Of a DNA stretch of 41,202 bases, positions 6,058 through 39,015 are shown piece by piece. The stretch is from assembly GCA_903912925.1 (NCBI GenBank), contig CAIWJG010000293.1, positions 1-41,202 of the forward strand, given 5' to 3'. The position numbers and the translations under genes were made by a program. The notes beneath the pieces are model-generated. The model was not told the DNA's origin. It ran no database searches and worked only from the letters and a program-made list of their open reading frames with translations. Numbering within the stretch: position 1 is the first letter of the stretch; the number at the start of each line of letters is the position of its first letter. Source of the DNA: an uncultured Verrucomicrobia subdivision 3 bacterium. Lineage in GTDB: Bacteria > Verrucomicrobiota > Verrucomicrobiia > Limisphaerales > UBA8199.

Positions 6058-9000
6058 TCACGCTGTGGGGAGTGCAGCTACACTGTCCGAGCGTTCCGAC
6101 TCCTTGCGTTTGAAGAGGGTATAGAGGACGGGCAGGACGACCAGCGTGAGCAGGGTGTTGCTGAGGACGCCACCGATGACCACCGTCGCCAGCGGGCGCT
6201 GGACTTCACCGCCCACGCCGACATTGACGGCCATCGGGATGAATCCCACGGCGGCCACGAGCGCGGTCATGAGCACGGGGCGCAGGCGTACGAGGCAGCC
6301 TTCGCGCACCGCGGTGTCGAGGGGGGTGCCCGCATCGAGCTTTTGTTTGATGAAGGTGACCAGCACCAGGCCGTTGAGAATGGCCACACCGCTCAGGGCG
6401 ATGAAGCCGACGGCGGCGCTGACAGTAAAGGGCATGCCGCGCAGCCACAACGCCAGCACGCCCCCAACTGCGCCCAGCGGAATACCGGTGGCGACGATGA
6501 ACACGTCACGCAGTGACTTGAGGCTAAAGTAGAGCATGATAAAAATCAGCCCCAGGGCCATCGGCACCACAAACCGCAGCTTGGCGTTGGCGCGCTCCAT
6601 GTTTTCAAACTGCCCGCCCCATTCGATGCTGTAGCCTTCCGGCAGTTTCACCTGGGCAGCGATTTTCTTCTGCGCCTCGGCGACGAAGCTGCCCACGTCC
6701 CGACCCCGCACGTTGCACTGGACGGTGATGCGCCGCCGGCCCCATTCGCGGTTGATGGTCGCTGGGCCTTCGGTTTCCACCACCTGGGCCACCTGGTTCA
6801 GCGGCAGGACCGAACCGGTGGCGGTTGGAATGAGCGTGTTAGCCAGCGCGTCGGGGTCGGTACGCTGGCGGTCGGGCAAACGCACCACCAGCGGGAACCG
6901 CCGCTGGCCTTCGCGCACTTCACCGACCTTCCTGGTGCCGACGGCTTCCACGACGTTCATTACGTTGCGCGTAGGCACGCCATAACGGGCGATGGCCTGC
7001 GGGTCCATGCGCACCTGCAAGATGAGTTGGCCGGTGAGTTGTTCGCCGGTGACTTCGCCGACACCCTTGATAGCGCCTAACACCTTCTGCACCTCGTCGG
7101 AGAGCAGACGCAATTGCTCCAGATCGTCGCCGTAGATTTTGATGCCGATGTCGGAGCGGATGCCGGCGATGAGTTCGTTGAGACGCATTTCAATGGGCTG
7201 GCTGAACGCGACCGTCATGCCGGGGAATTTGGTAAACAGCTCGCGCATTTTCTCCACCAGCTCCGTCTGCGTGCGGGCTTTCTGCCATTGATCGCGCGGC
7301 TTGAGCGCCAGGAAGAAGTCGGACAATTCAATGCCCATCGGGTCCGTGGCGATTTCGGCGCTGCCCAGGCGGGTCCAGATGTTGGCGAGCTCGTTGGGAA
7401 ACTCGGCCAGCAGGAGCTTCTCGATGCGATCGTTGTAGGCTACCGCTTCTTCAACCGAAACGCCGGCCAGCCGGACGGTCGTGCCCACGATGGCCCCCTC
7501 CCCCAGCTTGGGCAGGAATTCGCCGCCCAGGCGCAGGGCCAGAATGACGGCGGCCATCAGAATCGCCAGCGCGCCCAGCAGGGTGAACGCGCGGAAGCGC
7601 ATAGCCAGGGCCAGGACCGGCGCGTAGAGGCGATGCGTCGCCCGCACCAGCCAAGGCTCCTTTTCCTTGACCTGCTGCGGCAGAAACAGGCTGGCCAGGA
7701 CGGGCGTGAGGGTGAGCGATAGAATCAGCGAGCCGGCCAGCGCGAAGATCATCGTCAGCGCCATCGGTTTGAACAGCTTTCCTTCCACCCCTTCCAGCGC
7801 CAGGATGGGCAGGAACACGATTAAAATGATGCCGACGCCGAAGGCCACAGGCCGCGCCACTTCCAGCGGCGCGCTGGTGAGGGTTTCGTCGCGTTCTTGC
7901 TTCGTCAACGTACGCCCCAACTCACGCTGGCGCAGCGCCAGCCGGCGCATGGCATTTTCGACCATTACCACCGAGCCATCCACGATGAGTCCGAAGTCAA
8001 CGGCGCCCAGGCTCAGCAAGCTGGCGGAGATGCCGGTCTGCAGCATCAAGTCGCCGGCGAACAGCATGGAAAGCGGAATGGCCGCCGCCACCACCAGACC
8101 CGCCCGCAGATTGCCTAGGAACGCGAAGAGAATCGCAATCACCATCAGCGCTCCAGCCAGCAGGTTGTGTTTAACGGTTTCGATGACCTTGTCCACGAGT
8201 TCGGTGCGGTCATAGAGCACCTGGACGACCACGTCTTTGGGCAGGGTCTTTTGAACTTCAGCGAGCTTGTCTTTCAAGCCGCGCGTGACGACGGCGCTGT
8301 TTTCCCCCATGAGCATGAACCCCAGGCCCAGCACGATTTCGCCTTTGCCGGCGCCCGTCACCGCCCCACGCCGAATCTCATGGTCCACCTTCACCTCGGC
8401 GACGTCGCGCACGCGCACCGGCACGCCATCGTGTGCGGTGATGACGATGTTGGCGATTTCCTGGGCGTTCGTGGTCAGCCCAAGGCCATGCACCAGCAAG
8501 GACTCTCCGCTGCGCACCACCTGGCCGCCGCCGACGTTTTGATTATTGGCCGCGAGCGCCTCAAAGAGCTGTTCGAGTGTAAGACCGTATTTGACCAATC
8601 GCTGTGGCTCCGTGATGACGTGGAACTGTTTCTCGAACCCGCCCCAGGTGTTGACCTCGGCCACGCCCCGCACCTTGCGCAACTGCGGCTTGACTACCCA
8701 GTCCTGGATTTCGCGCAGCTCCGTGAGTGTCCGGTTGGTGCTGTCCGAGCGGACGGCGTAATGAAACACTTCACCCAAGCCCGTAGAAATCGGGCCGAGT
8801 TGGGGCCGCGCAATACCCGGCGGCAGCTCGATGGCTTGCAGTCGTTCGGTGATGAGCTGCCGCGCAAGGAAGATGCTCGTGGCATCGTCGAAGGTGGCCA
8901 CGACTTGCGAGAGGCCGAACTTGGACACCGAGCGGATATTGATAAGGCCGGGCAGCCCGCCGATGGCCAGCTCTACGGGAATGGTGATTTGCGACTCGGC

Positions 9001-9180
9001 TTCCTGCGCATTCAGCGACGGCACGGTGGTATTGATTTGCACTTGCACCGGCGTCGTGTCCGGGAAGGCGTCGATGGGCAGGTTGGTGAGCGCGCGTCCG
9101 CCCACCAGGATGAGCAAGGCCGCCAGGATGGCGACGAGCAGTCGGTTCTTGAGCGAGGTTGTGATGAGCCAGTTAAGCAT
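6058..9180 (-). CDS. czcA: Heavy-metal RND efflux pump, CzcA/CusA family
   Basis: The 1040-residue inner-membrane antiporter drives metal from periplasm or cytoplasm out through a tripartite channel. Features include TM1 at the N-terminus followed by LPIDAFPDTTPVQVQI, the HME-RND proton-relay motif DFGLIVDGSVVMVEN with D395, D401 and E408, and a second TM bundle in the C-terminal half (GLIFIMLYFSLKSLRD through VLPVLYTLF). Length is typical. It is the last gene of the czcC-czcB-czcA order but is separated from czcB by 465 bp filled with repeats, so it may have its own promoter or reduced expression. I cannot tell monovalent from divalent substrate preference. Confidence 0.94.
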   Translation of the reverse strand: MLNWLITTSLKNRLLVAILAALLILVGGRALTNLPIDAFPDTTPVQVQINTTVPSLNAQEAESQITIPVELAIGGLPGLINIRSVSKFGLSQVVATFDDATSIFLARQLITERLQAIELPPGIARPQLGPISTGLGEVFHYAVRSDSTNRTLTELREIQDWVVKPQLRKVRGVAEVNTWGGFEKQFHVITEPQRLVKYGLTLEQLFEALAANNQNVGGGQVVRSGESLLVHGLGLTTNAQEIANIVITAHDGVPVRVRDVAEVKVDHEIRRGAVTGAGKGEIVLGLGFMLMGENSAVVTRGLKDKLAEVQKTLPKDVVVQVLYDRTELVDKVIETVKHNLLAGALMVIAILFAFLGNLRAGLVVAAAIPLSMLFAGDLMLQTGISASLLSLGAVDFGLIVDGSVVMVENAMRRLALRQRELGRTLTKQERDETLTSAPLEVARPVAFGVGIILIVFLPILALEGVEGKLFKPMALTMIFALAGSLILSLTLTPVLASLFLPQQVKEKEPWLVRATHRLYAPVLALAMRFRAFTLLGALAILMAAVILALRLGGEFLPKLGEGAIVGTTVRLAGVSVEEAVAYNDRIEKLLLAEFPNELANIWTRLGSAEIATDPMGIELSDFFLALKPRDQWQKARTQTELVEKMRELFTKFPGMTVAFSQPIEMRLNELIAGIRSDIGIKIYGDDLEQLRLLSDEVQKVLGAIKGVGEVTGEQLTGQLILQVRMDPQAIARYGVPTRNVMNVVEAVGTRKVGEVREGQRRFPLVVRLPDRQRTDPDALANTLIPTATGSVLPLNQVAQVVETEGPATINREWGRRRITVQCNVRGRDVGSFVAEAQKKIAAQVKLPEGYSIEWGGQFENMERANAKLRFVVPMALGLIFIMLYFSLKSLRDVFIVATGIPLGAVGGVLALWLRGMPFTVSAAVGFIALSGVAILNGLVLVTFIKQKLDAGTPLDTAVREGCLVRLRPVLMTALVAAVGFIPMAVNVGVGGEVQRPLATVVIGGVLSNTLLTLVVLPVLYTLFKRKESERSDSVAALPTA

Positions 9181-9200
9181 TGGAAAATTCTTTCAGGTAA

Positions 9201-9464
9201 TGGCTGGTCGCCAGCAATTCTCATTATGGGACGAATGGGACGAATGGGACGGATGGCGGATGATCCCAGGTGGCCTCGGACACCCTAAAGGGTGGACACC
9301 AAACCTCCCAGACCAGCCAAAATGAGAACTGCTGGCTGGTCGCCAGCAATTCTCATTATGGGACGAATGGGACGAATGGGACGGATGGCGGATGGTCCCC
9401 TGTGGCCTCGGACACCCTAAAGGGTGGACACCAAACCTCCCAGACCAGCCAAAATGAGAACTGC
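9201..9464. repeat. Two tandem copies of a 132-bp element
   Basis: Copy 1 (9201-9332) and copy 2 (9333-9464) are nearly identical. Each begins TGGCTGGTCGCCAGCA, contains two to three GGGACGAAT units, then GGCCTCGGACACCCTAAAG and GGTGGACACCAAACC, and ends AAAATGAGAACTGC. The CACCCTAAAGGGTG palindrome recurs inverted at 15227-15240. It fills the gap between czcB and czcA. Confidence 0.93.
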
Positions 9465-9551
9465 TGATCGCCAGACGATAGGCTCCAAAGTTCTCCAATG
9501 ATTCCTGACTCATAATTGGTTCCAATTAACGGTTTGCACTATTCAAATCAA

Positions 9552-9641
9552 GGGAAGGGGCGGGGCCTGGGGGGCGAGGGACGAGGGGGTGGGAACGAAC
9601 TCGTCCCGTCGGCCTCGCCCCTCGCCCCGCTGGCTTCGCCC
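9552..9641. repeat. G-rich tract with C-rich snapback arm
   Basis: GGGAAGGGGCGGGGCCTGGG and GGGCGAGGGACGAGGGGG form the left part. CCTCGCCCCTCGCCCC and TTCGCCCC form the right part, a micro-repeat hairpin just beyond the czcB stop codon. The left part is a close copy of 10970-11017, so the two direct repeats flank czcB. Confidence 0.75.
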
Positions 9642-9645
9642 CTCA

Positions 9646-10920
9646 TCAGTCATCCGCGCAACCCGCGCCGAGCCGCGAAATCAGGAAGGCGGACTTGAGC
9701 GGGAAGACGTGGTTCACAGCGACAACTTCCTGTGGCTTCAAGCCCTCGATGATTTCCACCTTACCGTCGAATTTGGCCCCGAGCCGAACTACGCGAGCGT
9801 CGAACAAATCATCCGCTAGTTTCACGAACACAAAGCTCCTGCCTTCCATGCGTTGGATCGCCGAAGGCGGCAGCAACAACGCGCCTTCTGCTTGGCGAGT
9901 CAGGATGCGGGCCTGGGCAAACATCCTCGCTTTGAGCAACCCGTCCGGGTTGGCCACTTCGGCGCGGGCACGGGCCATGCGGCTCTTTTCGTCCACTTCC
10001 GCGCCGATCCAGGTCAGTTTGCCCGTGAACGTCTGGCCCGGCAACGACTCGACTCGCAACTCGACTGTTTGGCCAATCTTCACCCGGGCCAGGGCCGATT
10101 CAGGAATGTTGAGCATGGCCCACATCACCGAGCGATCCGCGAGCGTGAACAAGGATTTGCCGGCTTCCACCAAAGCGCCGCGCACGGCGGTCCGCTCGAC
10201 GATCTCACCCGCAAATGGCGCGCGCACATCCATGAGCACCTGATCGTTGGGCTTGGCCACCAGCGCGTCAATCTGCTCCTCGGTGAATCCCTGAGTGCGG
10301 AGTTGCTGGCAGGCCGCGCGGTGCTCGGCTTCCGCTTGCTGCAAGTCCTTCTCCGAGGTAACCCGCTCAGCGCGTAGTTTGCGCTCGCGGTCGAGGGTCT
10401 GATGACTCAACACCGCTTTGGCCACGGCTTCCGCAATAGAGGCTGACCAAATCTTCACCACCGGCTGCTTTTCTTCGACCTTGCTGCCCAAGTCCACGGA
10501 CACTTCCTGAATGATACCGCCCACCGGCGCGGCGATTTGGGCCAGCTTGTTTTGGTTGAACGTGAGCTCAGCGTAACACTCCACGGCGTCGGCAATCGTG
10601 CCCACGGTCGGCGCCGCGGTCTGAACGCCGGCAATGTCGGCAGAGTCATTGGAGGCTAGCCGCACCTTGGCCGACTCGCCGGGTTTCAGTGTCCCCGCCA
10701 GTAGCGGTCGGCAAATGCCGCATTCCTCCAGCGGGACGTTGTGCTCCGCGCACATTTTCTTGCCCGGCGGGGCTTTGGTTTCGGCGGCTGGCTCACCGTG
10801 TTTGTGGCCTGCGTGATCATCTTGCCCGGCGGGCTCGCTCTGTTTGGAGCACGCGGTCAGCAGGCCCACGGCGGCGAGCAGTGGGAGGATGGTTAATTTG
10901 CAAATGATTTTGGTGTTCAT
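9646..10920 (-). CDS. czcB: RND efflux membrane fusion lipoprotein, CzcB/CusB family
   Basis: The 424-residue periplasmic adaptor links the RND pump to the outer membrane channel. I use the ATG at 10920; a GTG six codons earlier is less likely because the ATG start yields a clean lipoprotein signal, ending LLTAC with C24 as the lipidation site. Behind it lies a His-rich stretch (DDHAGHKHGE) and a Cys/His cluster C57-x2-H60-x6-C67-x2-C70 (MCAEHNVPLEECGIC), a likely metal-sensing or delivery site. The lipoyl/hairpin part (IAAPVGGIIQEVSVDLGSKV) and beta-barrel (VDVRAPFAGEIVERTAVRG region) follow. It lies 21 bp after czcC on the same strand. Confidence 0.92.
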   Translation of the reverse strand: MNTKIICKLTILPLLAAVGLLTACSKQSEPAGQDDHAGHKHGEPAAETKAPPGKKMCAEHNVPLEECGICRPLLAGTLKPGESAKVRLASNDSADIAGVQTAAPTVGTIADAVECYAELTFNQNKLAQIAAPVGGIIQEVSVDLGSKVEEKQPVVKIWSASIAEAVAKAVLSHQTLDRERKLRAERVTSEKDLQQAEAEHRAACQQLRTQGFTEEQIDALVAKPNDQVLMDVRAPFAGEIVERTAVRGALVEAGKSLFTLADRSVMWAMLNIPESALARVKIGQTVELRVESLPGQTFTGKLTWIGAEVDEKSRMARARAEVANPDGLLKARMFAQARILTRQAEGALLLPPSAIQRMEGRSFVFVKLADDLFDARVVRLGAKFDGKVEIIEGLKPQEVVAVNHVFPLKSAFLISRLGAGCADD

Positions 10921-10941
10921 AAATCGTCTCGTTATCACTCG

Positions 10942-12345
10942 TCATTCTTTGATTCCAGGCTGGTTGGATTGGAAAGGGACGGGGCCTGGGGGGCGCGGGG
11001 CGAGGGGGGGGGGGAGGGGAGGGAAAGGCTTGGCTTCGCCGGAATTCCGGGCCACCAGGGCTTCAATCCCGGCCTGAGCCACGTTGAGTTCGAGCAGTTT
11101 CTGTTGGTAAGCCAGCCGCACTTCGGCGGCCGTGCGTTGCGTGTCCAGCAAGTCAATGAAACCGAACTTGCCTTCCTCGAAGCCGCGTTGGACGAGTCGC
11201 AGGGCCTCGTTTGCCTTGGGCAGGATCCGCTCACGGTAGTTGGCCGCTTGTTCCACAGCGGTTCGCAAGCGTTGGCTCGCCATGCCCCAATCCCGCAGCA
11301 GCCGTTGCTCCACCGCCGCAAGTTCCGACTCGGCGACTGATACATTGGCTTGTGCCTCCTGTTTCCTGCCCTTGGACCGGTCAATGATTGGCACCGGCAC
11401 GGTCAGGGTAAACTGCACAATCGAACCGGCCCCGCCCGACTCCTGGCCACCAGCGGCCCCCAGTTTGACGTCAGGATACGGCTCCAGCCTGGCCCGCCGC
11501 GATGCCGCCTCCGCCCGTTCCTTGCTCGCCTGCGCCGCCAGCACGCTGGGATGCCGGGGTAGCCATTGCTCCGGACCGTTTTTCAGCAGCGACAAATCGC
11601 CCGTCTCCGACAGGGCGCCGGAGACGGGAACCGCTCTCAATTCAGGACGCCCCAAAAGCATGGCCAGCTTCTGGCGGGCGAGTTCCTGTTCCCGCTCAAA
11701 GCCAGCCAACTCGGTTCTGGCCTGTTCCCAAGGAATTTCCGCGCGCAACTGCTCCTGGTCAGCCGCCGCTCCGGCCTGCACTCGCTTGCGCGCTGTGGCG
11801 GCCGACGACTCGGCTACCCCGACCAGTTCGCGGGACACCTCCACCAAGCGGCCCGCCGCCAGCACCTCAAAGAAGGCTGTCTTCACGTCGCGCACTAACT
11901 CCACCCGCCGCAAGCCGTAGTCCGCCTCGCTAACGCGCACACCCAGGCTGCCGATTTTGCCGTCGAGCCGCTTCTTGCCGGGGAACGGGACCGTTTGAGA
12001 CACCCCCACCAACTTCTTGGCATCCGCGAACCCGCCGCCACCCGTCGGCCAATCTTCGGCGCTCAACTCCAAGTCGGGATTGGACCATAGCTTCGACTGG
12101 TAGGCGCGCCCAGCCGCACTGCTGATCTGGCTGTCCGCCGCGCGAAGTTGCGGGTTGCTTTCGAGCGCTAAACGGACGGCAGCCTCCAGCGTGAGGGAGT
12201 TGGTGACTGATCCGGATTCAGCTTCCCGGCTGATTGCCGGGAGGACGCAAGCACTACCCAGCGCCGCCGCCAGGAGCAGCGGCCCGGTGAAGTAACCGAA
12301 GAACCTCACGGGCCAAGGCCAGCCACGATAAATCTCTTGCTTCAT
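10942..12345 (-). CDS. czcC: Outer membrane efflux protein, TolC/CzcC family
   Basis: The 467-residue product contains the two TolC-type helical repeats (LTLEAAVRLALESNPQLRAA and later EVRLAYQQKLLELNVAQAGI). It forms the outer membrane channel of the czcCBA pump. The start is set at ATG 12345 (MKQEIYRGWP), just before a signal-like hydrophobic segment. Two parts look like repeat DNA read as protein. The N-terminal WPWPVRFFGYFTGP is encoded by a hairpin repeat at 12281-12314. The Pro-rich C-terminus (PPLPPPLAPRPPGPVPF) is encoded by a G-rich repeat also found at 9552-9593. Neither is expected in this family, which suggests in-frame insertions. Confidence 0.9.
   Translation of the reverse strand: MKQEIYRGWPWPVRFFGYFTGPLLLAAALGSACVLPAISREAESGSVTNSLTLEAAVRLALESNPQLRAADSQISSAAGRAYQSKLWSNPDLELSAEDWPTGGGGFADAKKLVGVSQTVPFPGKKRLDGKIGSLGVRVSEADYGLRRVELVRDVKTAFFEVLAAGRLVEVSRELVGVAESSAATARKRVQAGAAADQEQLRAEIPWEQARTELAGFEREQELARQKLAMLLGRPELRAVPVSGALSETGDLSLLKNGPEQWLPRHPSVLAAQASKERAEAASRRARLEPYPDVKLGAAGGQESGGAGSIVQFTLTVPVPIIDRSKGRKQEAQANVSVAESELAAVEQRLLRDWGMASQRLRTAVEQAANYRERILPKANEALRLVQRGFEEGKFGFIDLLDTQRTAAEVRLAYQQKLLELNVAQAGIEALVARNSGEAKPFPPLPPPLAPRPPGPVPFQSNQPGIKE
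10970..11017. repeat. G-rich repeat copy inside the 3' end of czcC
   Basis: The stretch GGAAAGGGACGGGGCCTGGG followed by GGGCGCGGGGCGAGGGGG closely matches 9552-9593. Here it is translated on the minus strand as the Pro-rich tail of the czcC product. Confidence 0.75.
12281..12314. repeat. Hairpin repeat inside the czcC signal region
   Basis: GGCCCGGTGAAGT and AACCTCACGGGCC form the arms. The element matches intergenic hairpins at 3134-3172 and 18184-18216 but here lies in frame at the 5' end of czcC. Confidence 0.6.
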
Positions 12346-12437
12346 AAACAGACGACTCAGGTTGAAACGGACTAAAAGGACGGACAAAGCGGCGTGAAAT
12401 CACGCGACGCTTACAGAGGAATCCCCGCGGGGATTAT

Positions 12438-27577: not shown

Positions 27578-29524
27578 ATGACACATAATCGCCAAGCGAT
27601 GTGGCTGCCTTTGGGGCTCGCCCTGACCTTTGGCTCCGTGGGGGCTGCGCCGTTGACGCCCGATCAAATTCGCTCGCTCCCGCCGCCGACGGCTCGCCCA
27701 GTCGAATTCAAACGGGACATAGAGCCGATCCTCGCATCCAGTTGCATCAAGTGCCATGCGCGCGGACGGGCCAAAGGGGGGTTCCTGATTGATACACGCG
27801 AGACGCTACTGCGTGGAGGCGATTCCGGACCCGTGGTGGTCGCGGGCCAAAGCCAGGCGAGCTTGCTGATCGCGCTGGTCGCCGGGGTTGACCCGGACGA
27901 GGTGATGCCTAAGAAGGGTTCGCGTCTTACCGCCAATCAAATAGGCTTGTTGCGTGCCTGGATTGATCAGGGGTTGGCCTGGGACCCCGGGATCACCTTC
28001 GCCCGCCCTGCCCCGCTGAACCTGCTGCCGCACTCCCCCCGGCTGGAGATCTCCACGGCGAGCCAGACGGGTCCAATTGACCAGATCCTGGAACCCTACT
28101 TTAAGACCAACCACTTCCATCCCGAGGCCCGCCCCGTGAAGGCCCCCTACTTCACCGGGGCCGTAATCGACGACCGGCTCTTCGCCCGCCGGGCCTGGCT
28201 CGATGTGGTTGGCCTGATGCCGCCGGGAAACGAACTGGAATCGTTCCTCGCGGATGCGCATCCAAACAAACGAGCTCTGCTGGTGGAGCGCCTGCTGGCC
28301 GACGACCAGCATTATGCGGAACATTGGCTTTCGTTCTGGAATGACCTGTTGCGCAACGATTATCGCGGGACGGGCTACATTGATGGCGGGCGCAAGCAGA
28401 TCACCCACTGGCTCTATTCCGCCCTGGCTACCAACATGCCCTACGACCGGTTCGTCGCGCAGCTCGTCAATCCCACGCCGGAAAGCGAGGGCTTCAGCAA
28501 GGGAATTGTCTGGCGCGGCGTCGTCAACGCCAGCCAATCGCCGCCGCTGCAGGCGGCCCAGAACATCTCGCAGGTATTCATGGGGGTGAACCTCAAGTGC
28601 GCCTCCTGCCACGATAGCCTCATCAACGACTGGCGGTTGTCGGACTCCTACGGTCTGGCGAGCATCTATAGCGATGGCCCGTTGCAGTTGTTCCAATGTG
28701 ACAAACCAACCGGCCAAACGGCCGCCGCCAGGTTTATCTATCCAGAACTCGGTGAGATCGATCCTGCCGCGGACAAGCCGGCCAGGTTAAAACGGCTGGC
28801 CGAAATCATCGCCGGCCCGAAGGATGGGCGGCTGCCGCGCACCCTGGTTAACCGGCTTTGGGCACAGTTCTTCGGCCACGGCCTCGTGGAACCTGTGGAC
28901 GACATGGAGCAAGCGGCCTGGAACCAGGACCTGCTCGACTGGCTGGCTGAGGACCTCGTCGCTCACCATTACGACGTCAAACATACCATCGCTCTGATAC
29001 TCACATCCCAGGCTTATCAATTGCCGGCGGTGGATCTGGCGGAATCAAAAACCTTTGTCTTTCGCGGTCCGGGGGTGCGCCGTATGTCGGCCGAACAGTT
29101 TCGGGACGCCCTTGGCCAAATCACCGGGGTCTGGTTCCCGAAAGCCGCGTTCGGAAACGTAACGAATCAAATCCGTGCCAGCCTCGTGGCCGCTGATCCT
29201 CTGGCTGTCGCCCTTGGCCGCCCGAACCGGGAGCAGGTGGTCACTTCGCGTCCGACCGTAGCGACAACCCTGCAGGCGCTGGAACTGACCAACGGTGAAA
29301 CGCTCGCGAAGATCCTGCACCGCGGGGCCGAGCAACTCGCCGCTGCCGACCCATTGCCAGGTGAATTGATTGATCGGCTTTACCGCAATGCGCTGAGCCG
29401 CCCACCCCGGGCAACCGAAAAGGCTATCGCCGTTGATCTGCTCGGACAGCCTACTCGTCGGGAGGGGATCGAGGACCTGGTTTGGGCCATGGTGATGTTG
29501 CCGGAATTCCAACTCATCTACTGA
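27578..29524 (+). CDS. Secreted DUF1549/DUF1553 protein with cytochrome-type CxxCH (first copy)
   Basis: The 648-residue protein has an N-terminal signal (about residues 8-24). A planctomycete-type cytochrome domain follows with C56-x2-C59-H60 (SSCIKCHARGRAKGG) and GGDSGPVVVAGQSQASLL. DUF1549 comes next (IDDRLFARRAWLDVVGLMPPG, LLADDQHYAEHWLSFWNDLL) with a second motif C341-x2-C344-H345 (KCASCHDSLINDW). DUF1553 is C-terminal (TLVNRLWAQFFGHGLVEPVDDM, RGPGVRRMSAEQFRDALG). Proteins of this layout are abundant in planctomycetes and Verrucomicrobia and are assumed to be exported haem proteins in degradation of complex substrates; the reaction is unknown. Three bases separate it from its DUF1501 partner, as usual. 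Confidence 0.92.
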   Translation: MTHNRQAMWLPLGLALTFGSVGAAPLTPDQIRSLPPPTARPVEFKRDIEPILASSCIKCHARGRAKGGFLIDTRETLLRGGDSGPVVVAGQSQASLLIALVAGVDPDEVMPKKGSRLTANQIGLLRAWIDQGLAWDPGITFARPAPLNLLPHSPRLEISTASQTGPIDQILEPYFKTNHFHPEARPVKAPYFTGAVIDDRLFARRAWLDVVGLMPPGNELESFLADAHPNKRALLVERLLADDQHYAEHWLSFWNDLLRNDYRGTGYIDGGRKQITHWLYSALATNMPYDRFVAQLVNPTPESEGFSKGIVWRGVVNASQSPPLQAAQNISQVFMGVNLKCASCHDSLINDWRLSDSYGLASIYSDGPLQLFQCDKPTGQTAAARFIYPELGEIDPAADKPARLKRLAEIIAGPKDGRLPRTLVNRLWAQFFGHGLVEPVDDMEQAAWNQDLLDWLAEDLVAHHYDVKHTIALILTSQAYQLPAVDLAESKTFVFRGPGVRRMSAEQFRDALGQITGVWFPKAAFGNVTNQIRASLVAADPLAVALGRPNREQVVTSRPTVATTLQALELTNGETLAKILHRGAEQLAAADPLPGELIDRLYRNALSRPPRATEKAIAVDLLGQPTRREGIEDLVWAMVMLPEFQLIY

Positions 29525-29527
29525 GCC

Positions 29528-31030
29528 ATGCGCACTGCTCCTAATTGGACTCGCCGCGATTTCCTCAGGACCGCCGGGGCAGCCACGCTCTCCGCCCTGA
29601 CCGCCGGGTACCCTCGGCAGATTATTGCCGCTGAAGCCAAGCATGAGCAGCCGAAGCCGACCGCGGATACGATCATCGTGCTCTGGATGGGTGGAGGGAT
29701 GGCGCATACGGAAACCTTCGATCCCAAGCACTATACGCCGTACGAGAAGGGCATGTCGCCGAGCGCATTCCTGAGCACCTTCCCGAGCATTAATACCAGC
29801 GTGGACGGGGTGAAGTTCTCGCAAGGGCTCGAGAACCTGGCGCGGGTAATGGATCGCGGCACACTGATTCGCTCCTACACGGCCGGCGATTTGGGGTTCA
29901 TCCTGCACTCCCGGCATCAGTACCAGTGGCATACTGGCTATGCCCCACCGCAGACGGTCGCTGCTCCGCATTTGGGCGCCGTCATTGCTCGCACGCTCGG
30001 ACCGCTCAATCCAGTTGTCCCGGCCTTCATTAACATCGGCCAACGCTTTGACGTCGGCGAAGGGGAGGAGCTGAAGGCGTTCACCACCGCCGGCTTTCTG
30101 GGTAGCGAGTATGGCCCATTCAACGTCCCGTTCCCGGAGGAGGCCGCCGAGAGCGTGCGGCCGCCAGAAGGCATGACTCCGGGCCGATTCGAGAACCGCG
30201 AGAAGTTCCTCAAGAAGCTCCTCGCTGCCAGTCCGGTTGGGGAATACGGGAGCGGCTACCAAAAAGACTCGCTCGTGCGCTCGTTAGACAACGCCTATCG
30301 GCTGCTCAACTCTCCAGCCGCCAAGGCCTTCGACCTCACGCTCGAACCGATCGAAAACATCCGCAAATACGCGTCCAACTATGAGCCTGGCCGCCACTTC
30401 AACGCCACCCAGGACCGCTTCGGCGCCAAATACGAGGAGCAGATGCTCGGTCGCTTCGGTCTTAGCTGCCTTCTCGCGCGCCGCCTGGCCGAGGTGGGCG
30501 CTCGCTACATCGAGGTCACCACCGAATACATTCCCTTCCTGAACTGGGACACTCACGAGAACGGACATGCGCGCGCCGCGGCCATGAAGCAGCAAATCGA
30601 CGCCCCCGTAGCGCAGTTGGTGCTCGATTTGGAAGCGCGCGGGTTGCTCAGCCGCACTCTGATCGTGCTAGCCAGCGAATTCAGCCGGGACGCGCTCATC
30701 GAAGGCCGCCCCGACAAGACGGTCAAAGACCAGGTTGAGGTGCCGGAGAAGGTTGAAGATCCCAAGTTCTACGGGATGCATCGCCACTTCACGGACGCCG
30801 GTTCCGTATTGCTCTTCGGCGGCGGCGTCAAGCGCGGCTACGTGCATGGCCGAACAGCCGAAGAGCGGCCGTGCAAGACGCTTGAGAAACGAGTGGTCAT
30901 CGAGGATCTGCACGCCTCGATCTACCGCGCAATGGGGATTTCGCCTGACCTGGCTTACGAGATCGAGCGGCGTCCATTCTATGTCACACGGGACGGCAAG
31001 GGTAACCCGATCTCCGAACTGTTCGCCTGA
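29528..31030 (+). CDS. Tat-exported DUF1501 protein (first copy)
   Basis: The 500-residue protein starts MRTAPNWTRRDFLRTAGA, a clear twin-arginine signal. The mature part is DUF1501, related to the alkaline phosphatase/sulfatase superfamily: TIIVLWMGGGMAHTETFDPK near the N-terminus, LLARRLAEVGARYIEVTTEY, NWDTHENGH and LIVLASEFSRDALIE, followed by a late His-containing MHRHFTDAGSVLLFGGG. The His and Asp residues suit a metal site. DUF1501 genes almost always follow a DUF1549/1553 gene, and here the spacing is three bases, implying translational coupling and co-export. Confidence 0.92.
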   Translation: MRTAPNWTRRDFLRTAGAATLSALTAGYPRQIIAAEAKHEQPKPTADTIIVLWMGGGMAHTETFDPKHYTPYEKGMSPSAFLSTFPSINTSVDGVKFSQGLENLARVMDRGTLIRSYTAGDLGFILHSRHQYQWHTGYAPPQTVAAPHLGAVIARTLGPLNPVVPAFINIGQRFDVGEGEELKAFTTAGFLGSEYGPFNVPFPEEAAESVRPPEGMTPGRFENREKFLKKLLAASPVGEYGSGYQKDSLVRSLDNAYRLLNSPAAKAFDLTLEPIENIRKYASNYEPGRHFNATQDRFGAKYEEQMLGRFGLSCLLARRLAEVGARYIEVTTEYIPFLNWDTHENGHARAAAMKQQIDAPVAQLVLDLEARGLLSRTLIVLASEFSRDALIEGRPDKTVKDQVEVPEKVEDPKFYGMHRHFTDAGSVLLFGGGVKRGYVHGRTAEERPCKTLEKRVVIEDLHASIYRAMGISPDLAYEIERRPFYVTRDGKGNPISELFA

Positions 31031-31065: not shown

Positions 31066-34000
31066 ATGAGGTTCCTCTCGGACAGTTTCGACCGGCCCGC
31101 GAGGCGCTCCACTGGCGCGCCTGGCTGGATGGCAGCTTTGCTTGGCGTCGCCGCAGCGCTTGTCGGGAGTCCGTCAGCCCCTGCGGTTGAGGCCGATCAA
31201 GCTTCCCCGGCCCCGATCCAGTTCAACCGCGATATCCGGCCGATACTTTCCGACAACTGCTTCAACTGCCATGGGCCTGACCCCACGAAACGGAAAGCGG
31301 AGTTGCGGCTCGACACACCGGAGGGGGCAACCGCAACGAATAAAGATGCGACGGTAGCCATCAAAGCCGGCGACCTCAAGGGCAGCGAACTCTGGCGGCG
31401 CATCAACGCCACCGATCCGAAAGTTCACATGCCCCGGCCCGATTCGGGCAAGCAGCTCAGGCCGAAACAGATCGCCGCGCTCGGCAAATGGATCGAGCAA
31501 GGCGCGCAGTATCAAAAGCATTGGGCCTTCGATCCGCCCACCCGCCCCAACCCGCCGACCGTGAGGAAGGCCGACTGGCCGCGCAACGACGTTGACCGGT
31601 TCATCCTCGCCACGCTTGAGGCCAAACAGTTAGCGCCGACGGCCGAAGCGCCCAGGGAAACCTTGATCCGCCGCGTCTCACTCGACCTCACCGGATTGCC
31701 GCCCACGCCGGCAGAAGTTGATGCATTCCTGGGCGATCAGACCCAGGGCGCCTACGAGAAACTCGTGGATCGCCTGCTTGCCTCGCCGCGCTACGGCGAG
31801 CATATGGCGAGGTACTGGCTCGATGTGGCACGTTACGGCGACACCCACGGGCTCCACCTCGACAACGAGCGCTCGATGTGGCCCTACCGGGATTGGGTGG
31901 TAGATGCTTTCAACCGCAACCTCCCTTTCGATCAGTTCACGATCTGGCAGCTCGCCGGCGACCTGCTGCCCAAAGCCACACGCGAGCAGCGCGTTGCCTC
32001 CGGCTTCAACCGCTGCAACGTCTCCACCGGCGAGGCCGGCGTGATCGACGAAGAGTTCCAGGTCCGCTACGGCGTTGACCGCGTCGAGACGACCTCCGCC
32101 GTCTGGCTGGGCCTTACAATGGGCTGTGCCGTCTGCCACGACCACAAGTTCGACCCCATCACGCAGAAGGAGTTCTACCAGGTATTCTCGATCTTCAACA
32201 ACATCTCCGAAAAGACCCTCGACAAGAACGCGCTGCTGCCCCCTCCCACGATGCAACTCCCGAATCCCGACCAGGAGAAGCAGCTCAAAGAATTGGACCA
32301 CCAATTGGCGGAGCTGGATAACAAGAGCCAGGCCGCGGTCTCCAACTTGAACTATACCGACCCGGCCACTTTGACGATAGCGCCCAAGATGGAGCCGAAG
32401 GAGATTGTGTGGATTGACGACGCTTTTCCGATCGGCACCGCGCCGCAGGTTAACGAAGGGAACGCACCCCACAAGTGGATCTCGACGAATGAGGGCCCGG
32501 TCTTCAGTGGCCAGCGCGCCATCCAGCGCAGCGGCAAAGGCCTCCACCAGGTCTCGTTCCCGGACTGCAAAGAGCCGCTCACGGTAAGCGCGGGCGACAA
32601 GTTCTTCGCCTACGTCTTCCTTGATCCCAAGGACCCGCCAAAGGCGATCATGCTCCAATGCAGCGTCGGCGGGAGTTGGTCGGGACGCGCGAACTGGGGT
32701 GATGACGACGCCATTCCCTACGGCAAGAAAGGCACGCCGGAAAAGCTCCTTCTCGGCAAGCTACCGGAGACAGGCAAGTGGGTCCGACTCGAAGTAGAGG
32801 CCGCCCAACTTGATCTGAAGCCGGGCAAGAAAATCACCGGCATCGGCTTCACGATGTTTGATGGCACGGCCTACTGGGATAAAGCGGGCCTCTCCACCAC
32901 CGCCGACCCCGCCCAGAACACCGCTTTCTCCCTCCTCGCGTGGGAGAAATCAGAGGGGAAGTTGGGGGATGATTCGCAGGCGCCGGACGACGTTAAAGCC
33001 GGGCTCAAGAAGGAAGCGGCGAAGCGGGACGGCTTGGAAAAGCAAAGGCTTCGCGAGTTTTTCCTAGCCAGAGTATATGCCGAAGCGGGGCCGGAGTTGC
33101 AGGCGCTCCGCGACGCGTCCCGACCTATCCGCGAAAAGCTCATGGCGCTGGACAAGGAAATTCCCGGGACCATGGTCTCGCAGGAATTGGAGAAGCCACG
33201 ACCGGCCTGGCTGCTCCTCCGCGGTCAATATGACAAGCACGGCGACCCTGTATCCCCGGGCGTGCCGGCAGTGCTGCCGCCCTTGCCGCAGAGCGACGTG
33301 ACAAACCGGCTCTCGTTCGCAAAGTGGCTGGTAGATGGGACAAATCCACTGACGGCGCGCGTCACGGCGAACCGTTTCTGGCAGCAGTTCTTTGGTACAG
33401 GCCTCGTGAAGACCAGCGAGGATTTAGGCACGCGAAGCGAATGGCCTTCGCATCCCGAGTTGCTGGACTGGCTGGCGACCGAATTCATCCATACCGGCTG
33501 GGACGTGAAGAGCTTCGTTAAAATGATTGTCACCTCCGCGACGTACCGGCAGGACTCGCGGGCGACGCCAAGACTGTTGGCATCGGACCCAGACAATCGT
33601 CTGCTCGCGCGCGGACCTAAATATCGCCTGGACGCTGAGGTCTTGCGGGACAACGCCCTGTGCGTGAGCGGCCTGCTCAACCCGAAGATGGGCGGGCGCG
33701 GCGTGCGGCCCTACCAACCCGGCGGCATCTGGGAAGCCGTTGGCTACACCGATAGTAACACGGCTAAATACACACAGGACCACGGCGACGCGCTGTATCG
33801 CCGCAGCCTTTACCTTTTCTGGAAGCGCACCGCACCGCCGCCGTCCCTGACGACTCTCGACACCCCGTCCCGCGAGCAGTGCCGCACACGACGCGAGCGC
33901 ACGGACACGCCCCTTCAGGCGTTACTAATGATGAACGACGTGACCTATTTCGAAGCCGCCCGCCAGCTCGGCTACCGCATGCTCCATGAGGGCGGCGCGA

Positions 34001-34254
34001 GCGACGCGGACCGGCTGCGCTACGGTTTCCGCCTGGTCACCGCCCGAATGCCGGCTGACAACGAGTGCGCCATCCTCGCGCAAAACCTCGACGCCCAACG
34101 CGCGGCCTTCCGCGCGAATGAAGCAGCGGCGAAGCAGGCGATCCGTGTGGGCGAGTCACCAGTGCCTGGTGACGTGCCGCCTGCCGAACTGGCGGCCTAC
34201 ACGATGGTCGCAAATCTCCTCCTGAACCTCGATGGTGTTGTTACCCGAGACTGA
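31066..34254 (+). CDS. Large secreted cytochrome-DUF1549-DUF1553 protein (second copy)
   Basis: The 1062-residue protein has an N-terminal signal-like segment ([19 protein letters not shown], about residues 23-41). A planctomycete cytochrome domain follows, with C65-x2-C68-H69 ([20 protein letters not shown]). DUF1549 begins near residue 165 ([20 protein letters not shown]) and contains C354-x2-C357-H358 ([19 protein letters not shown]). Between DUF1549 and DUF1553 lies about 280 residues that the first copy lacks, including a beta-rich region ([19 protein letters not shown]) and charged helices. DUF1553 follows ([20 protein letters not shown]) and ends with [20 protein letters not shown]. 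It lies 35 bp after the first pair. Confidence 0.93.
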
Positions 34255-34271: not shown

Positions 34272-35744
34272 ATGCAACCGTTGACTGAATTCCACCAGCG
34301 CCAGACCCGGCGGCTGTTCTTTAAGAACACCGGCCTTGCGGCCGGGCGCATCGCGCTGGCCACAGTGCTCGGGCCTGGGCTGTTGCGCGCCGCGGCGAAC
34401 GTCAGGCAGCAGCGCGCCCACCCGTCGCTGCCGGGCCTGCCACACTTCGCGCCAAAGGCCAAGCGGCTCATCTACCTCTTCATGAACGGCGCGCCCTCAC
34501 AGCTCGACCTGTGGGACTACAAACCCCGGCTCAGCGGCCTCTACAACACCGACCTGCCCGACTCGATCCGCATGGGGCAGCGGCTGACGACGATGACGAG
34601 CGGGCAGAAGCGCTTTCCCGTCGCGCCCACGATCTATAAGTTCGCCCCGCACGGCCAGTGCGGCACGCTGGTAAGTGAGCTGCTCCCGCACACGGCGCAG
34701 ATAGTGGATGAACTCGCCGTCATCAAGACCGTCCACACCGAAGCCATCAACCATGATCCCGCGGCCACGTTTCTGCTCACCGGAAACCAGGTGCCCGGCC
34801 GGCCGAGCATTGGCGCCTGGATTTCCTACGGCCTCGGCAGCGAGGCGGAGAACCTGCCGGCGTTCGTAGTCATGACTCCCCGCTGGTCAGCCAAGCGCCC
34901 CGCCCAGGCGCTCTACCAACGGCTCTGGGGCGCGGGCTTTTTGCCATCGAAGCACCAGGGCGTGGCGCTGCGGTCACAGGGGGACCCGGTGCTGTTCTTG
35001 AACAACCCGCCAGGCGTTGACGCGGCCACACGCCACACGATGCTGGACGGTTTGGCCAAGCTGAACCAGGCCGCGTTCGAGCGCAGCGGCGATCCTGAAA
35101 TCCAGACCCGCATCGCTCAGTACGAAATGGCCTTCCGGATGCAGACCTCGGTCCCGGAACTCACGGACATCTGCGGAGAGCCCAAGTCGGTGCTGGATCT
35201 CTATGGCCCGGAGGCGAGCGTGCCAGGCACGTTTGCCGCGAGCGCGCTGATGGCGCGGCGCCTGGTGGAGCGCGGCGTGCGCGTCGTGCAAATCCTCCAC
35301 CGCGAATGGGACCAGCATGAGAACCTCCCCCGCGACCTCAGCCTCCAATGCCGCGACATTGACCAGGCCTGCAAGGGGCTGATCCTCGATCTCAAGCAGC
35401 GTGGCATGTTGGAAGACACGCTCGTGGTGTGGGGCGGCGAGTTTGGGCGCACGGTATATTGCCAGGGCGAACTCACCCAAACCAACTACGGCCGCGACCA
35501 TCATCCACGCTGTTACACGATGTGGCTGGCCGGCGCGGGCGTGAGGGGCGGCACTGCCTATGGCGAGACGGACGACTTCAGCTACAACATCGTGCGCGAC
35601 CCGGTGCATATCCGCGACATCAATGCCACGATCCTCCACCTGCTGGGCGTTGATCACAAGCGGCTCATTTATACGTTTCAAGGTCTCGACCAACGCCTGA
35701 CAGGCGTGGAAGAGGCCAACCCAGTGAAAGGGATACTGGTATGA
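34272..35744 (+). CDS. Exported DUF1501 protein (second copy)
   Basis: The 490-residue protein starts [19 protein letters not shown], with TRRLFF and the hydrophobic stretch behind it forming a twin-arginine-like signal. DUF1501 signatures follow: [83 protein letters not shown] and [19 protein letters not shown]. The EFGRT and GRDHHP elements are the best conserved in the family. It is paired with the preceding DUF1549/1553 gene at a 17-bp gap. It is only distantly similar to the first DUF1501 copy, so the tandem arrangement is not a recent duplication. Confidence 0.92.
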
Positions 35745-35877: not shown

Positions 35878-37740
35878 ATGACCCCCCCCTCGGATACGCT
35901 GCTTCTTTTCGGCCGCTTTCACCCACTGCTGGTGCATCTGCCGATTGGGCTGATTGTCGTATTGGCATTCCTCGAATTGCTGGCGTGCTGGCCACGGCTC
36001 AAGCAGGCCAACGCGTCCGCTGGGGCCATCCTCGCCCTCGCTGTGCCGGCCTCGATCATCACCGCCGTCTGCGGCTGGCTGCTCTCTCTCGCTGGCGGCT
36101 ATGAAGCGGGCCTGCTGCAATGGCATAAATGGACCGGCATCGCCGTTGCCGTCATGTGTGCAGTGATCGGGCTGGTTTATTGGCTGGACTTGAAGAAGCT
36201 CTACCGAGTGGCCCTGTCTGCCACGTTTGGCGTCCTCGTGTGGGCCAGCCATTACGGCGGCTCTCTAACTCACGGCAAGGATTACCTCACCCGCTACGCG
36301 CCGGAATCGCTGCAAACGCTGCTCGGCGGCGCGAGCACACCAGCGCCCGGCCGAAATAGAGGGGGCACTCTCGCGGACAAACAGGCTTTCGCGGATGTCA
36401 TCAGGCCCATGCTGGGTAACACGTGCATTTCCTGTCACGGCCCGGAGAAGGCGAAGGCCGGCTTGCATCTCGACACGCATCCCGCGTTGATCAAGGGCTC
36501 CGAGAACGGCCCGGTGATCGTCGCGGGCAAGGCCGCTGACAGCCCTCTGATCAAGCGGATCGTTCTCCCGGCCGATCACGAGGACCACATGCCTCCCGCT
36601 GGCAAACCGCAACCTGCAGCCGACGATATTGCGCTGCTCCGATGGTGGATCAATGCCGGCGCGCCCGACGACAAGAAGATCAGCGAGTTAAAGGTGCCGC
36701 CGGACATTCAGAAGATCCTGGACAAGCGTTTTGCCGGCGCAATGGCTGGTGCAGGTAAAGCCGAGTCCGTTGTCCAACCCCTGCCGCTAGCCGCAGTTCT
36801 GCCCCTTGCCGAGAAGTTAACGGACGACCTGAACATCGCCGTGAGCGCGCTTTCGCCGAGCGAGCCGTGGCTTCAGTGCAATGCCAGCATCGCCGGCACG
36901 AACTTCGCGGACGCCGACCTTGCCGCGCTCGCTCCCCTTGCCGCCAACCTCCGGTGGCTCGACCTCGCCGGCACCGGCGTCACGGATGCCGCCCTGGCGC
37001 AGGTCGGGGCAATGCGCCACCTCACCCGCCTTCACCTTCAACGCACGGCCATCACCGACACCGGAGTCGCGCACCTCGCCGGTTTAGCCGAGTTGGAGTC
37101 CCTGAATCTCTACGGCACCGCCGTGACTGATGCCGCCCTGGGAACTCTGGGACGGCTCGCGAAGCTCCGGCAGCTCTATCTCTGGCAGAGCAAGGTCACC
37201 CCGGAGGCCGCGAAGGCCTTCGCCGAAGCGCGCGTGGACAAGGAGCAGATCGCCAAGTGGGAAGCGGAGATCGAGCAACTCCAGGCGCAGATCAAGGATC
37301 AGCATATAGCCGTCGAGGCAGGCGCGCCCGCCTCGGCTGCCGCCGACCCCGGCCCCATTCCGATCAACACCGTCTGCCCCGTATCCGGCAAGCTCGCCGA
37401 CCGCACCAGGACCACAGTGCATGAAGGCAAAATCGTGGCCTTCTGCTGCGACAACTGCAAAGCCAAGTTCACAAAGGACCCAAAGCCTCACCTGGCGAAG
37501 CTGGCACAATTGGCCAACCCGCCGCCCGGCAACCTCGGCCTCGCTAAGGCGATCAACACCAAATGCCCCGTGTCCGGCAAAGACGTGGACCCGACCAGGA
37601 CTCGCCTCCACGATGGCAAACTCGTGGCCTTCTGCTGCGACGACTGCAAGGCCAAGTTCGACCAGGATCCCAAACCCTTCCTGGCGAAGCTTGGGTTAGA
37701 CTCACCAGACAGCGCACCTCCGAAAGAACAAAAGCAATGA
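35878..37740 (+). CDS. DUF2231 membrane domain - cytochrome - LRR - double YHS-like fusion
   Basis: The 620-residue protein starts at ATG 35878 because GGGAGGG lies seven bases before it. In order: a four-span DUF2231-like membrane domain (LFGRFHPLLVHLPIGLIVVL, residues about 8-140); a planctomycete cytochrome domain with C183-x2-C186-H187 (CISCHGPEKAKAGLHLDTH); leucine-rich repeats (GVTDAALAQVGAMRHLTRLH and following, about 350-440); and a short coiled helix. Two YHS/TRASH-like metal modules close it, at C500 (CPVSGK) with FCCDNC at 522-527 and at C563 with FCCDDC at 585-590, 63 residues apart. The soluble parts are probably periplasmic. It follows the DUF1549/1501 pairs on the same strand and is coupled to the next gene by an ATGA overlap. 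Confidence 0.9.
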   Translation: MTPPSDTLLLFGRFHPLLVHLPIGLIVVLAFLELLACWPRLKQANASAGAILALAVPASIITAVCGWLLSLAGGYEAGLLQWHKWTGIAVAVMCAVIGLVYWLDLKKLYRVALSATFGVLVWASHYGGSLTHGKDYLTRYAPESLQTLLGGASTPAPGRNRGGTLADKQAFADVIRPMLGNTCISCHGPEKAKAGLHLDTHPALIKGSENGPVIVAGKAADSPLIKRIVLPADHEDHMPPAGKPQPAADDIALLRWWINAGAPDDKKISELKVPPDIQKILDKRFAGAMAGAGKAESVVQPLPLAAVLPLAEKLTDDLNIAVSALSPSEPWLQCNASIAGTNFADADLAALAPLAANLRWLDLAGTGVTDAALAQVGAMRHLTRLHLQRTAITDTGVAHLAGLAELESLNLYGTAVTDAALGTLGRLAKLRQLYLWQSKVTPEAAKAFAEARVDKEQIAKWEAEIEQLQAQIKDQHIAVEAGAPASAAADPGPIPINTVCPVSGKLADRTRTTVHEGKIVAFCCDNCKAKFTKDPKPHLAKLAQLANPPPGNLGLAKAINTKCPVSGKDVDPTRTRLHDGKLVAFCCDDCKAKFDQDPKPFLAKLGLDSPDSAPPKEQKQ

Positions 37741-38798
37741 ACCGACGCGATTTCCTTTTCACCAGCGCCTCCCTGGCCGCCGGCACCTTCGCCGGGCACG
37801 GCCATGCGCACGAACATCATTTCCCCGACCAGACGTTCCAGCTTGCCGCCGCTAACAGTCCGGCCCCGCCCGACGCGCAACCGGCCAGCGGCGGTGCCAT
37901 CGTCAGCGGCTCCGGCGAGTTCCGCTTTGAGTACGTCCCGACGCGGCTGATACCGCCGCCCGAAGTGAAGATGCGCAACGGCCACGGCTTGTGCCTCGAT
38001 GACCATGGCAACATCTACTTCACCTTCGAGCCGGAGAAGGTGGAAGCGGACACGCGCTGCCTGGTGAAGTTCGCGCCCGACGGCACCAACCCTGTCCTGC
38101 TCGGCAGCGACAACTCCCTGGCTCATGGCGTGCCGCACGGCCTCAATATCCACTCCGACAAAGACGGCAAGCTCGTCCTCTACCACGCCAACAATGACGC
38201 GACTGTCCACAAGACCACTTTGGAGGGGCAGATCCTCTGGACGCAGAAGTGGTCCCCGCAGATGGGCAACTACAAGCCCACCGACGCCGCTGCGACTCCG
38301 GGCAGCGACCGGGTGGTCGTCGCCGACGGGTATGGCAGCAGCATGATCCACGAGCTCAAAGCCGCGGATGGCGTGTATGCCGGCAAATCCTGGGGCGGCC
38401 TGGGCTCAGCACACGGCGAACTGAATTGCCCGCACGGGATCACCTACGACCCGCGCTGCAAGCTGCTGCTCACCGCCGACCGGGGCAACAAGCGCCTGGA
38501 GTATTTCACGCTCGCCGGCTTCTACCACAGCACGATCGAGGCAAAGGAGATTACCGCCCCCTGCAACGCCGACATCCGGGGTGACCACATGCTTGTGCCC
38601 GACCTCAACGGCCCCCTGGTGATACTCGACAAGGACAACAAGGTCGTTTCCGTGATCGAGGTGGGCAAGTTGCTCGGCGCGCAAGGCTTCAAGCACCCGC
38701 ACGATGCCATCTGGCTAGCCAACGGCGACATCGCCGTCTGCACGTGGAACCCGGGCCGCCTGGGGTATTGGAGGCGATTGGAGCCGGCGGCACGATGA
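37737..38798 (+). CDS. Tat-exported NHL-like beta-propeller protein
   Basis: The 353-residue product starts at ATG 37737, overlapping the previous stop codon in ATGA, which implies translational coupling. MNRRDFLFTSASLAAGTF is a twin-arginine signal. Immediately behind it is a His-rich run, HGHAHEHHF, a plausible metal-binding tail. The rest has repeated blade signatures: GHGLCLDDHGNIYFTFE, PHGLNIHSDKDGKLVLYHAN, CPHGITYDPRCKLLLTADRG and HPHDAIWLANGDIAVCTWNP, as in six-bladed NHL/SMP-30-like propellers. The ligand is unknown. Its place suggests it works with the cytochrome/YHS fusion. Confidence 0.85.
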   Translation: MNRRDFLFTSASLAAGTFAGHGHAHEHHFPDQTFQLAAANSPAPPDAQPASGGAIVSGSGEFRFEYVPTRLIPPPEVKMRNGHGLCLDDHGNIYFTFEPEKVEADTRCLVKFAPDGTNPVLLGSDNSLAHGVPHGLNIHSDKDGKLVLYHANNDATVHKTTLEGQILWTQKWSPQMGNYKPTDAAATPGSDRVVVADGYGSSMIHELKAADGVYAGKSWGGLGSAHGELNCPHGITYDPRCKLLLTADRGNKRLEYFTLAGFYHSTIEAKEITAPCNADIRGDHMLVPDLNGPLVILDKDNKVVSVIEVGKLLGAQGFKHPHDAIWLANGDIAVCTWNPGRLGYWRRLEPAAR

Positions 38799-38858
38799 GG
38801 AATGTTCGGCCGTAACTCTGCAGTCGAGCGCTCGGTTCCCCCTGAACCGAAAAAGGAG

Positions 38859-38990
38859 AACATCGAACATCCAACATCGAACGCCCAACATCCAATAATG
38901 GCGCAGACAGTGGCCCTTGGCTATTGGCTATTGGCTGTTGGCTGTTCGATGTTGGATGTTGGATGTTCGATGTTCGATGTTCGATGTTCG
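38859..38990. repeat. Snapback hairpin with CGAACATC / TTCGATG and GCTATTG units
   Basis: The left arm (38859-38897) has AACATCGAACATCCAACATC and CCAACATCCAATA. The right arm (38921-38990) has GGCTATTGGCTATT, GGCTGTTGGCTGTT and then five units of the GATGTTGGATGTTC/GATGTTCGATGTTC type. It lies between two convergent genes in the 217-bp gap and may terminate both. Confidence 0.88.
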
Positions 38991-39015
38991 GGCCCTCCGA
39001 CTCAACAGGGCCGGC

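Follow-up and report, generated by a model that had tools for sequence, protein, structure and literature searches.

Proteins with DUF1549, DUF1553, and DUF1501 domains are abundant in Planctomycetota and Verrucomicrobiota, and their chemistry is uncharacterised; the functions of the DUF1549 and DUF1501 proteins are given as unknown in the literature (PMC5615132). At the locus described here, a run of such genes ends with a protein, P0001, that joins a membrane domain, a c-type cytochrome domain, leucine-rich repeats (LRRs), and YHS modules, followed by a propeller protein, P0002. What does P0001 contribute to the system beside which it is encoded? As a membrane cytochrome, it is a testable way into a common but uncharacterised enzyme system. 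The window is positions 1-41,202 of contig CAIWJG010000293.1, and P0001 to P0006 are its proteins as numbered in the analysis. Labels beginning with G and L denote the genomes and loci compared.

Gene organization of the locus

The region 35878-38798 on the forward strand consists of exactly two genes, P0001 and then P0002. They close a same-strand run of six genes that begins upstream at 27578, in which two PSCyt1-DUF1549-DUF1553 proteins and two DUF1501 proteins precede P0001 (Table 1). The first four genes are separated by gaps of 3, 35, and 17 bases, and P0001 follows after a longer gap of 133 bases. The start codon of P0001 is an ATG with GGGAGGG upstream, and the orthologues start at the same point. 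The start codon of P0002 lies within the stop of P0001 (ATGA, 37737-37740).

A scan for promoters and terminators gave sites not in excess of those in shuffled sequence. Between the convergent genes 3′ of the propeller gene, a sequence of the GAACATCGAACATCCAACATC type is repeated within positions 38858-38993, also in inverted orientation (GATGTTCGATGTTGGATGTT); one arm was scored as a terminator-like hairpin.

Table 1. Positions in the window of the genes and protein features discussed in the text
Feature	Coordinates	Strand	Basis or remark
P0006, second PSCyt1-DUF1549-DUF1553 protein	27578..29524	+	Pfam
P0005, second DUF1501 protein, Tat signal	29528..31030	+	Pfam
P0004, PSCyt1-DUF1549-DUF1553 protein, partner	31066..34254	+	Pfam
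P0003, DUF1501 protein, partner	34272..35744	+	Pfam; 79-82% identity in orthologous operons
P0001, membrane-cytochrome-LRR-double YHS protein, 620 aa	35878..37740	+	ORF, Pfam, and homologues
DUF2231-type four-helix membrane domain, residues 1-132	35878..36273	+	Conserved His; model
PSCyt1 c-type cytochrome domain, residues 183-242	36424..36603	+	Pfam; CISCH 183-187, Met238
Leucine-rich repeats, residues about 357-450	36946..37227	+	Pfam LRR_8
YHS/TRASH-like module 1, residues 496-543	37363..37506	+	Cys500, 523, 524, 527
YHS/TRASH-like module 2, residues 559-606	37552..37695	+	Cys563, 586, 587, 590
P0002, predicted Tat-exported NHL propeller, PAL-like, 353 aa	37737..38798	+	Overlaps P0001 by ATGA
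His cluster HGHAHEHH, residues 21-28, end of Tat signal	37797..37820	+	2-6 His in close orthologues
Stretch spanning His134, Tyr199, His233, His322	38136..38702	+	Invariant in 21 homologues; first three align to PAL

Domain composition and topology of P0001

From the N-terminus, P0001 consists of a four-helix DUF2231-type membrane domain, a PSCyt1 domain, LRRs, a short helix, and two YHS modules. Pfam recognises PSCyt1 (PF07635; E = 2e-15, 57.6 bits against a cut-off of 22), LRR_8 (E = 1.3e-6), and YHS in two stretches (PF04945; E = 2.8e-10, 40.4 bits against a cut-off of 30.3). The match of P0001 alone to DUF2231 (PF09990) is below the threshold (E = 0.044, 14.3 bits against a cut-off of 26.4). 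Since 18 of the 19 aligned relatives match the model at E ≤ 0.05, the best of them at 2.3e-9, the name is correct at the family level. P0001 has the HPxxxH-P motif and the four helices in common with the DUF2231 family, and is 29% identical by blastp (E = 7.8e-5) to L001, a short, free-standing DUF2231 protein encoded elsewhere in the same genome. The single-chain composition given in the preliminary description, including two Cys-rich YHS modules, thus agrees with Pfam and the homologues, in the case of DUF2231 by way of the relatives.

The conserved residues of the two N-terminal domains should be noted. In the membrane domain, His15, His20, and His83 are conserved in all 42 sequences, which represent at least two phyla, and His125 and His132 in 41 each. 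AlphaFold2 models this domain as a four-helix bundle (mean pLDDT 95.6). Its comparison with PDB folds gave no significant match, with cytochrome b561, the formate dehydrogenase membrane subunit FdnI, CcmC, and CcmF appearing only at E > 0.8, and the fold search with the model of full-length P0001 returned LRR proteins as the sole matches. It is reasonable to infer that the membrane domain could hold haem b. In the cytochrome domain, Cys183, Cys186, His187, and Met238 are invariant among the 19 relatives. This domain is a PSCyt1 domain of the CxxCH/Met type to which haem c is predicted to be attached, and cytochrome-c assembly genes are encoded in the same genome.

The loops predicted to be cytoplasmic contain on average 2.83 and 1.86 Lys/Arg residues, and the other loops are neutral or acidic. 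This charge pattern suggests that the N-terminus, the cytochrome domain, the LRRs, and the YHS modules face the periplasm and that the anchor lies in the cytoplasmic membrane. The surface location proposed in the preliminary description was rejected on the strength of these loop charges.

Distribution of the architecture and its operon

In a search of 58 related genomes, seven besides that of the window proved to encode the full architecture, all of them from its own family (G002, G004, G006, G007, G009, G010, and G012); their copies are 50-56% identical to the window protein. The domain order is the same in all eight full-length family copies, with one to three YHS modules each. The preliminary description had named as its refuting case that the domains occur elsewhere only as unrelated separate genes; this neighbourhood survey found them fused. 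Because the order recurs in seven other genomes, in most of which the flanking genes are also arranged alike, P0001 is no chance fusion. The order P0004-P0003-P0001 is present in every family genome whose contig allows it to be seen, with frequent ATGA overlaps, and in L002, a named Limisphaerales record. In G001, of the same genus, the contig ends after P0005, and any P0001 would lie beyond it.

A wider search covered 289 genomes of the phylum. The membrane-cytochrome-LRR core is present throughout the class; outside the family, it is encoded in at least 14 further genomes, and no YHS module was recognisable among the core proteins checked there. Of 13 distant neighbourhoods in the phylum, four (L133, L137, L138, and L140) have the P0004-P0003-P0001 order and nine have the membrane-cytochrome-LRR gene alone, so the core is not tied to the DUF1549/1501 genes. 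The operon is also found at five Bacteroidota loci; Flavobacterium, Spirosoma, Larkinella, and Mucilaginibacter possess it. In Flavobacterium and Spirosoma, a DUF2231-PSCyt1 segment is fused straight onto DUF1549-DUF1553 in the same operon (L006:1827-4184 and L007:1803-4217). This Bacteroidota counterpart of P0006 thus begins with a DUF2231 membrane domain of its own. This fusion is the strongest single hint that the parts may share a function.

The core protein is of a known but unstudied kind; little literature was found on DUF2231, on DUF1501, or on YHS with cytochromes. P0003 and P0004 are ordinary members of the PSCyt1-DUF1549/DUF1553-DUF1501 systems already described (PMC5615132), with the same domains and gene pairing. 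What sets this locus apart is that the system has a membrane-cytochrome-LRR subunit dedicated to it, which bears a YHS tail and is partnered by a propeller. That P0001 is a redox-type protein linked to the DUF1549/1501 proteins, as had been proposed, is supported. Sequence searches of the PDB gave no match, and hence no relative of solved structure, for either the DUF1501 or the DUF1549/1553 proteins.

That a membrane cytochrome is encoded next to DUF1549/1553 and DUF1501 genes in different phyla, and in Bacteroidota is joined to DUF1549/1553 in one chain, suggests a role in electron transfer. Our tentative reading, to which we give somewhat less than an even chance, is that P0001 serves the PSCyt1-DUF1549-DUF1553/DUF1501 system as an electron-transfer subunit, seated in the inner membrane and facing the periplasm, with the YHS modules as a soft-metal add-on and the propeller as a PAL-like partner. 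Close to the periplasmic side of the membrane, the five conserved His residues of the DUF2231-type domain would hold haem b or a different metal centre, and the quinone pool would be the partner with which this domain exchanges electrons. Next in line would be the CxxCH/Met haem, from which electrons would reach the CxxCH haems in the DUF1549/1553 proteins, with the LRRs serving as a docking surface. The direction of the electron flow is a guess, since the activities of the DUF1549/1553 and DUF1501 proteins are uncharacterised.

The C-terminal tails of the relatives bear on another reading, in which P0001 is mainly a docking scaffold that anchors the DUF1549/1553-DUF1501 enzymes by a polysaccharide or other substrate, with the LRRs and the tail serving recognition and the haem being secondary. 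The YHS modules are replaced by chitobiase- or Fn3-associated tails at the four Bacteroidota loci scanned, by an F5/8-type C domain in L138, and by another domain or nothing in other relatives; the tail position is thus an exchangeable slot. PSCyt genes often lie near sulfatases, some with carbohydrate-binding modules, and carbohydrates have been proposed as substrates for PSCyt genes generally (He et al., PMC5615132), a proposal with which the putative sugar-binding-type tails agree. However, the invariant Cys183, Cys186, His187, and Met238 and the membrane His residues would be superfluous in a pure anchor, and, apart from a BNR-repeat protein on the opposite strand, the window genes scanned included no recognisable enzyme of polysaccharide degradation. 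We regard the scaffold as an unlikely explanation, albeit one with some weight.

The YHS tail

The number of YHS modules per family copy is one in six genomes, two in the window protein, and three in G009, and all 11 modules keep their four Cys residues. Two modules of G009 are 98% identical, pointing to a recent duplication there; the two in the window are 73% identical. Judging from these sequences, the modules readily duplicate. Within the genomes compared, the tail appears as a variant of the core protein confined to the family of the window organism.

The modules have the CP..G...FCCxxC pattern of YHS/TRASH modules (PF04945), such as those of Cu-ATPases and Mycobacterium phlei adenylyl cyclase. 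In the latter, the YHS domain is a copper sensor through which Cu2+ activates the enzyme (PMC4626032). Those in P0001 differ in forming a periplasmic tail on a cytochrome and in having an extra Cys beside the usual ligands; they are likely to bind copper or some other soft metal. As occupants of the C-terminal adaptor slot, they may tune or sense the electron-transfer complex. The lineage-specific tail is an example of how such systems gain metal-binding adaptors.

The same observations raise the question of whether the tail is a neutral accretion, spread by tandem duplication and adding nothing essential. The copy number of one to three, the nearly identical pair in G009, and the existence of relatives without YHS are what such a process would leave. 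All eight full-length family copies, however, retain one or more modules in which the set of four Cys is complete, and YHS is associated with this gene system in several further ways: as a separate double-YHS gene adjoining DUF1549/1553 and DUF1501 genes (L014), as the tail of a DUF1553-type protein (L012 and L018), and in a cytochrome-LRR-YHS protein without the membrane domain (L068). A neutral tail therefore seems improbable to us.

Acidobacteria and Planctomycetota encode double-YHS proteins that are only about 145 amino acids long and look secreted (L013:9914-10345, L015:8865-9311, and L017:547-990). No P0003- or P0004-like genes were found beside them.

The propeller P0002

P0002 is an NHL propeller (PF01436, E = 9.6e-7). 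The preliminary description left unmentioned that it resembles PAL, the zinc lyase of PAM: it matches 3fvz at E = 6.4e-8 with P0002 as the query and at 2.3e-7 with the alignment as the query. The PHG (His134), PTD...DGY (Tyr199), and PHG (His233) motifs of P0002 align to PHG, DGY, and PHS of PAL. His134 and His233 presumably correspond to the two zinc ligands of PAL, and Tyr199 to its catalytic Tyr. His83, Asp88, His134, Tyr199, His233, Arg249, and His322 are invariant among 21 homologues, His322 being beyond the reach of the PAL alignment. TRIM-type NHL propellers outscore PAL in the PDB search with P0002, and other NHL repeats match as well. A TRIM-like function was rejected, as those top matches represent repeat similarity while PAL shares the conserved PHG and DGY motifs.

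In comparison with eukaryotic PAL, with which it has the NHL propeller in common, P0002 is bacterial, predicted to be Tat-exported, and furnished with an N-terminal His cluster. Among the genes examined, none was found to encode a copper monooxygenase domain as its partner. We infer that P0002 may be a PAL-like metalloenzyme; it would be a separate periplasmic enzyme of the same pathway as P0001. A second clue to the reaction of the system comes from the propeller, as the substrates of PAL are hydroxylated intermediates. One could go further and envisage a two-step oxidative machine, in which the membrane cytochrome would exchange electrons with a DUF1549/1553-DUF1501 oxidase, this oxidase would hydroxylate a substrate, the propeller would cleave the product, and copper in the YHS modules would take part in the redox step. 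Parts that are for the most part unrelated to those of eukaryotic PAM would then do an equivalent job. We consider this machine very improbable.

The propeller gene immediately follows P0001 in the window, G002, G007, G009, and G012. It adjoins P0006-P0005 in G001 and is unlinked in G004, and no close copy was found in G006 and G010, though the YHS tail is present there. In Bacteroidota, the propeller gene is next to a P0001- or P0003-like gene in five of eight cases. From this linkage pattern, the partnership of P0001 and the propeller is widespread and not obligatory.

The position of the His cluster in P0002 should also be noted. The N-terminus reads MNRRDFLF...AGHGHAHEHHF, a Tat-type signal followed directly by the cluster; this and the ATGA overlap are as the preliminary description had them. 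The cluster lies just past a possible AxA-type cleavage site, which suggests that the His residues would be at or near the N-terminus of the mature protein. It is present in every close orthologue with two to six His and absent in distant propellers, including operon-linked ones. The metal relay proposed for the pair, read as one from the YHS modules to this His tail, is disfavoured, since the two do not go together: a close propeller is missing from G006 and G010, whose proteins carry YHS, the unlinked propeller of G004 has only HH, and the distant operon-linked propellers lack the cluster. A further point absent from the preliminary description is that the invariant His residues are those of the membrane domain and of the core of the propeller, not those of the His tail.

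The lack of co-occurrence also weakens a broader reading, in which the YHS modules and the His tail would bind, pass on, or sense periplasmic metal, such as copper, and the cytochrome would keep it reduced. The conserved Cys sets and the copper sensor of M. phlei (PMC4626032) fit such metal handling. So does L061:1004-3964, from the same genus, where a 290-residue membrane-cytochrome paralogue without LRRs or YHS adjoins genes for a CusF-SCO1 fusion and a plastocyanin-type protein. The window itself has a set of genes for a CusA/CzcA-family RND efflux pump, an HlyD/CusB-type adaptor, and an outer-membrane channel (6058-12387), but they are more than 15 kb from P0001-P0002 on the opposite strand. 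The same operon, moreover, occurs in other families and phyla without YHS. Metal handling as the main role is thus rather doubtful.

At L137:8449-9450, a Mal s 1-like propeller with HH just past its signal is encoded by a gene that overlaps the preceding membrane-cytochrome-LRR gene.
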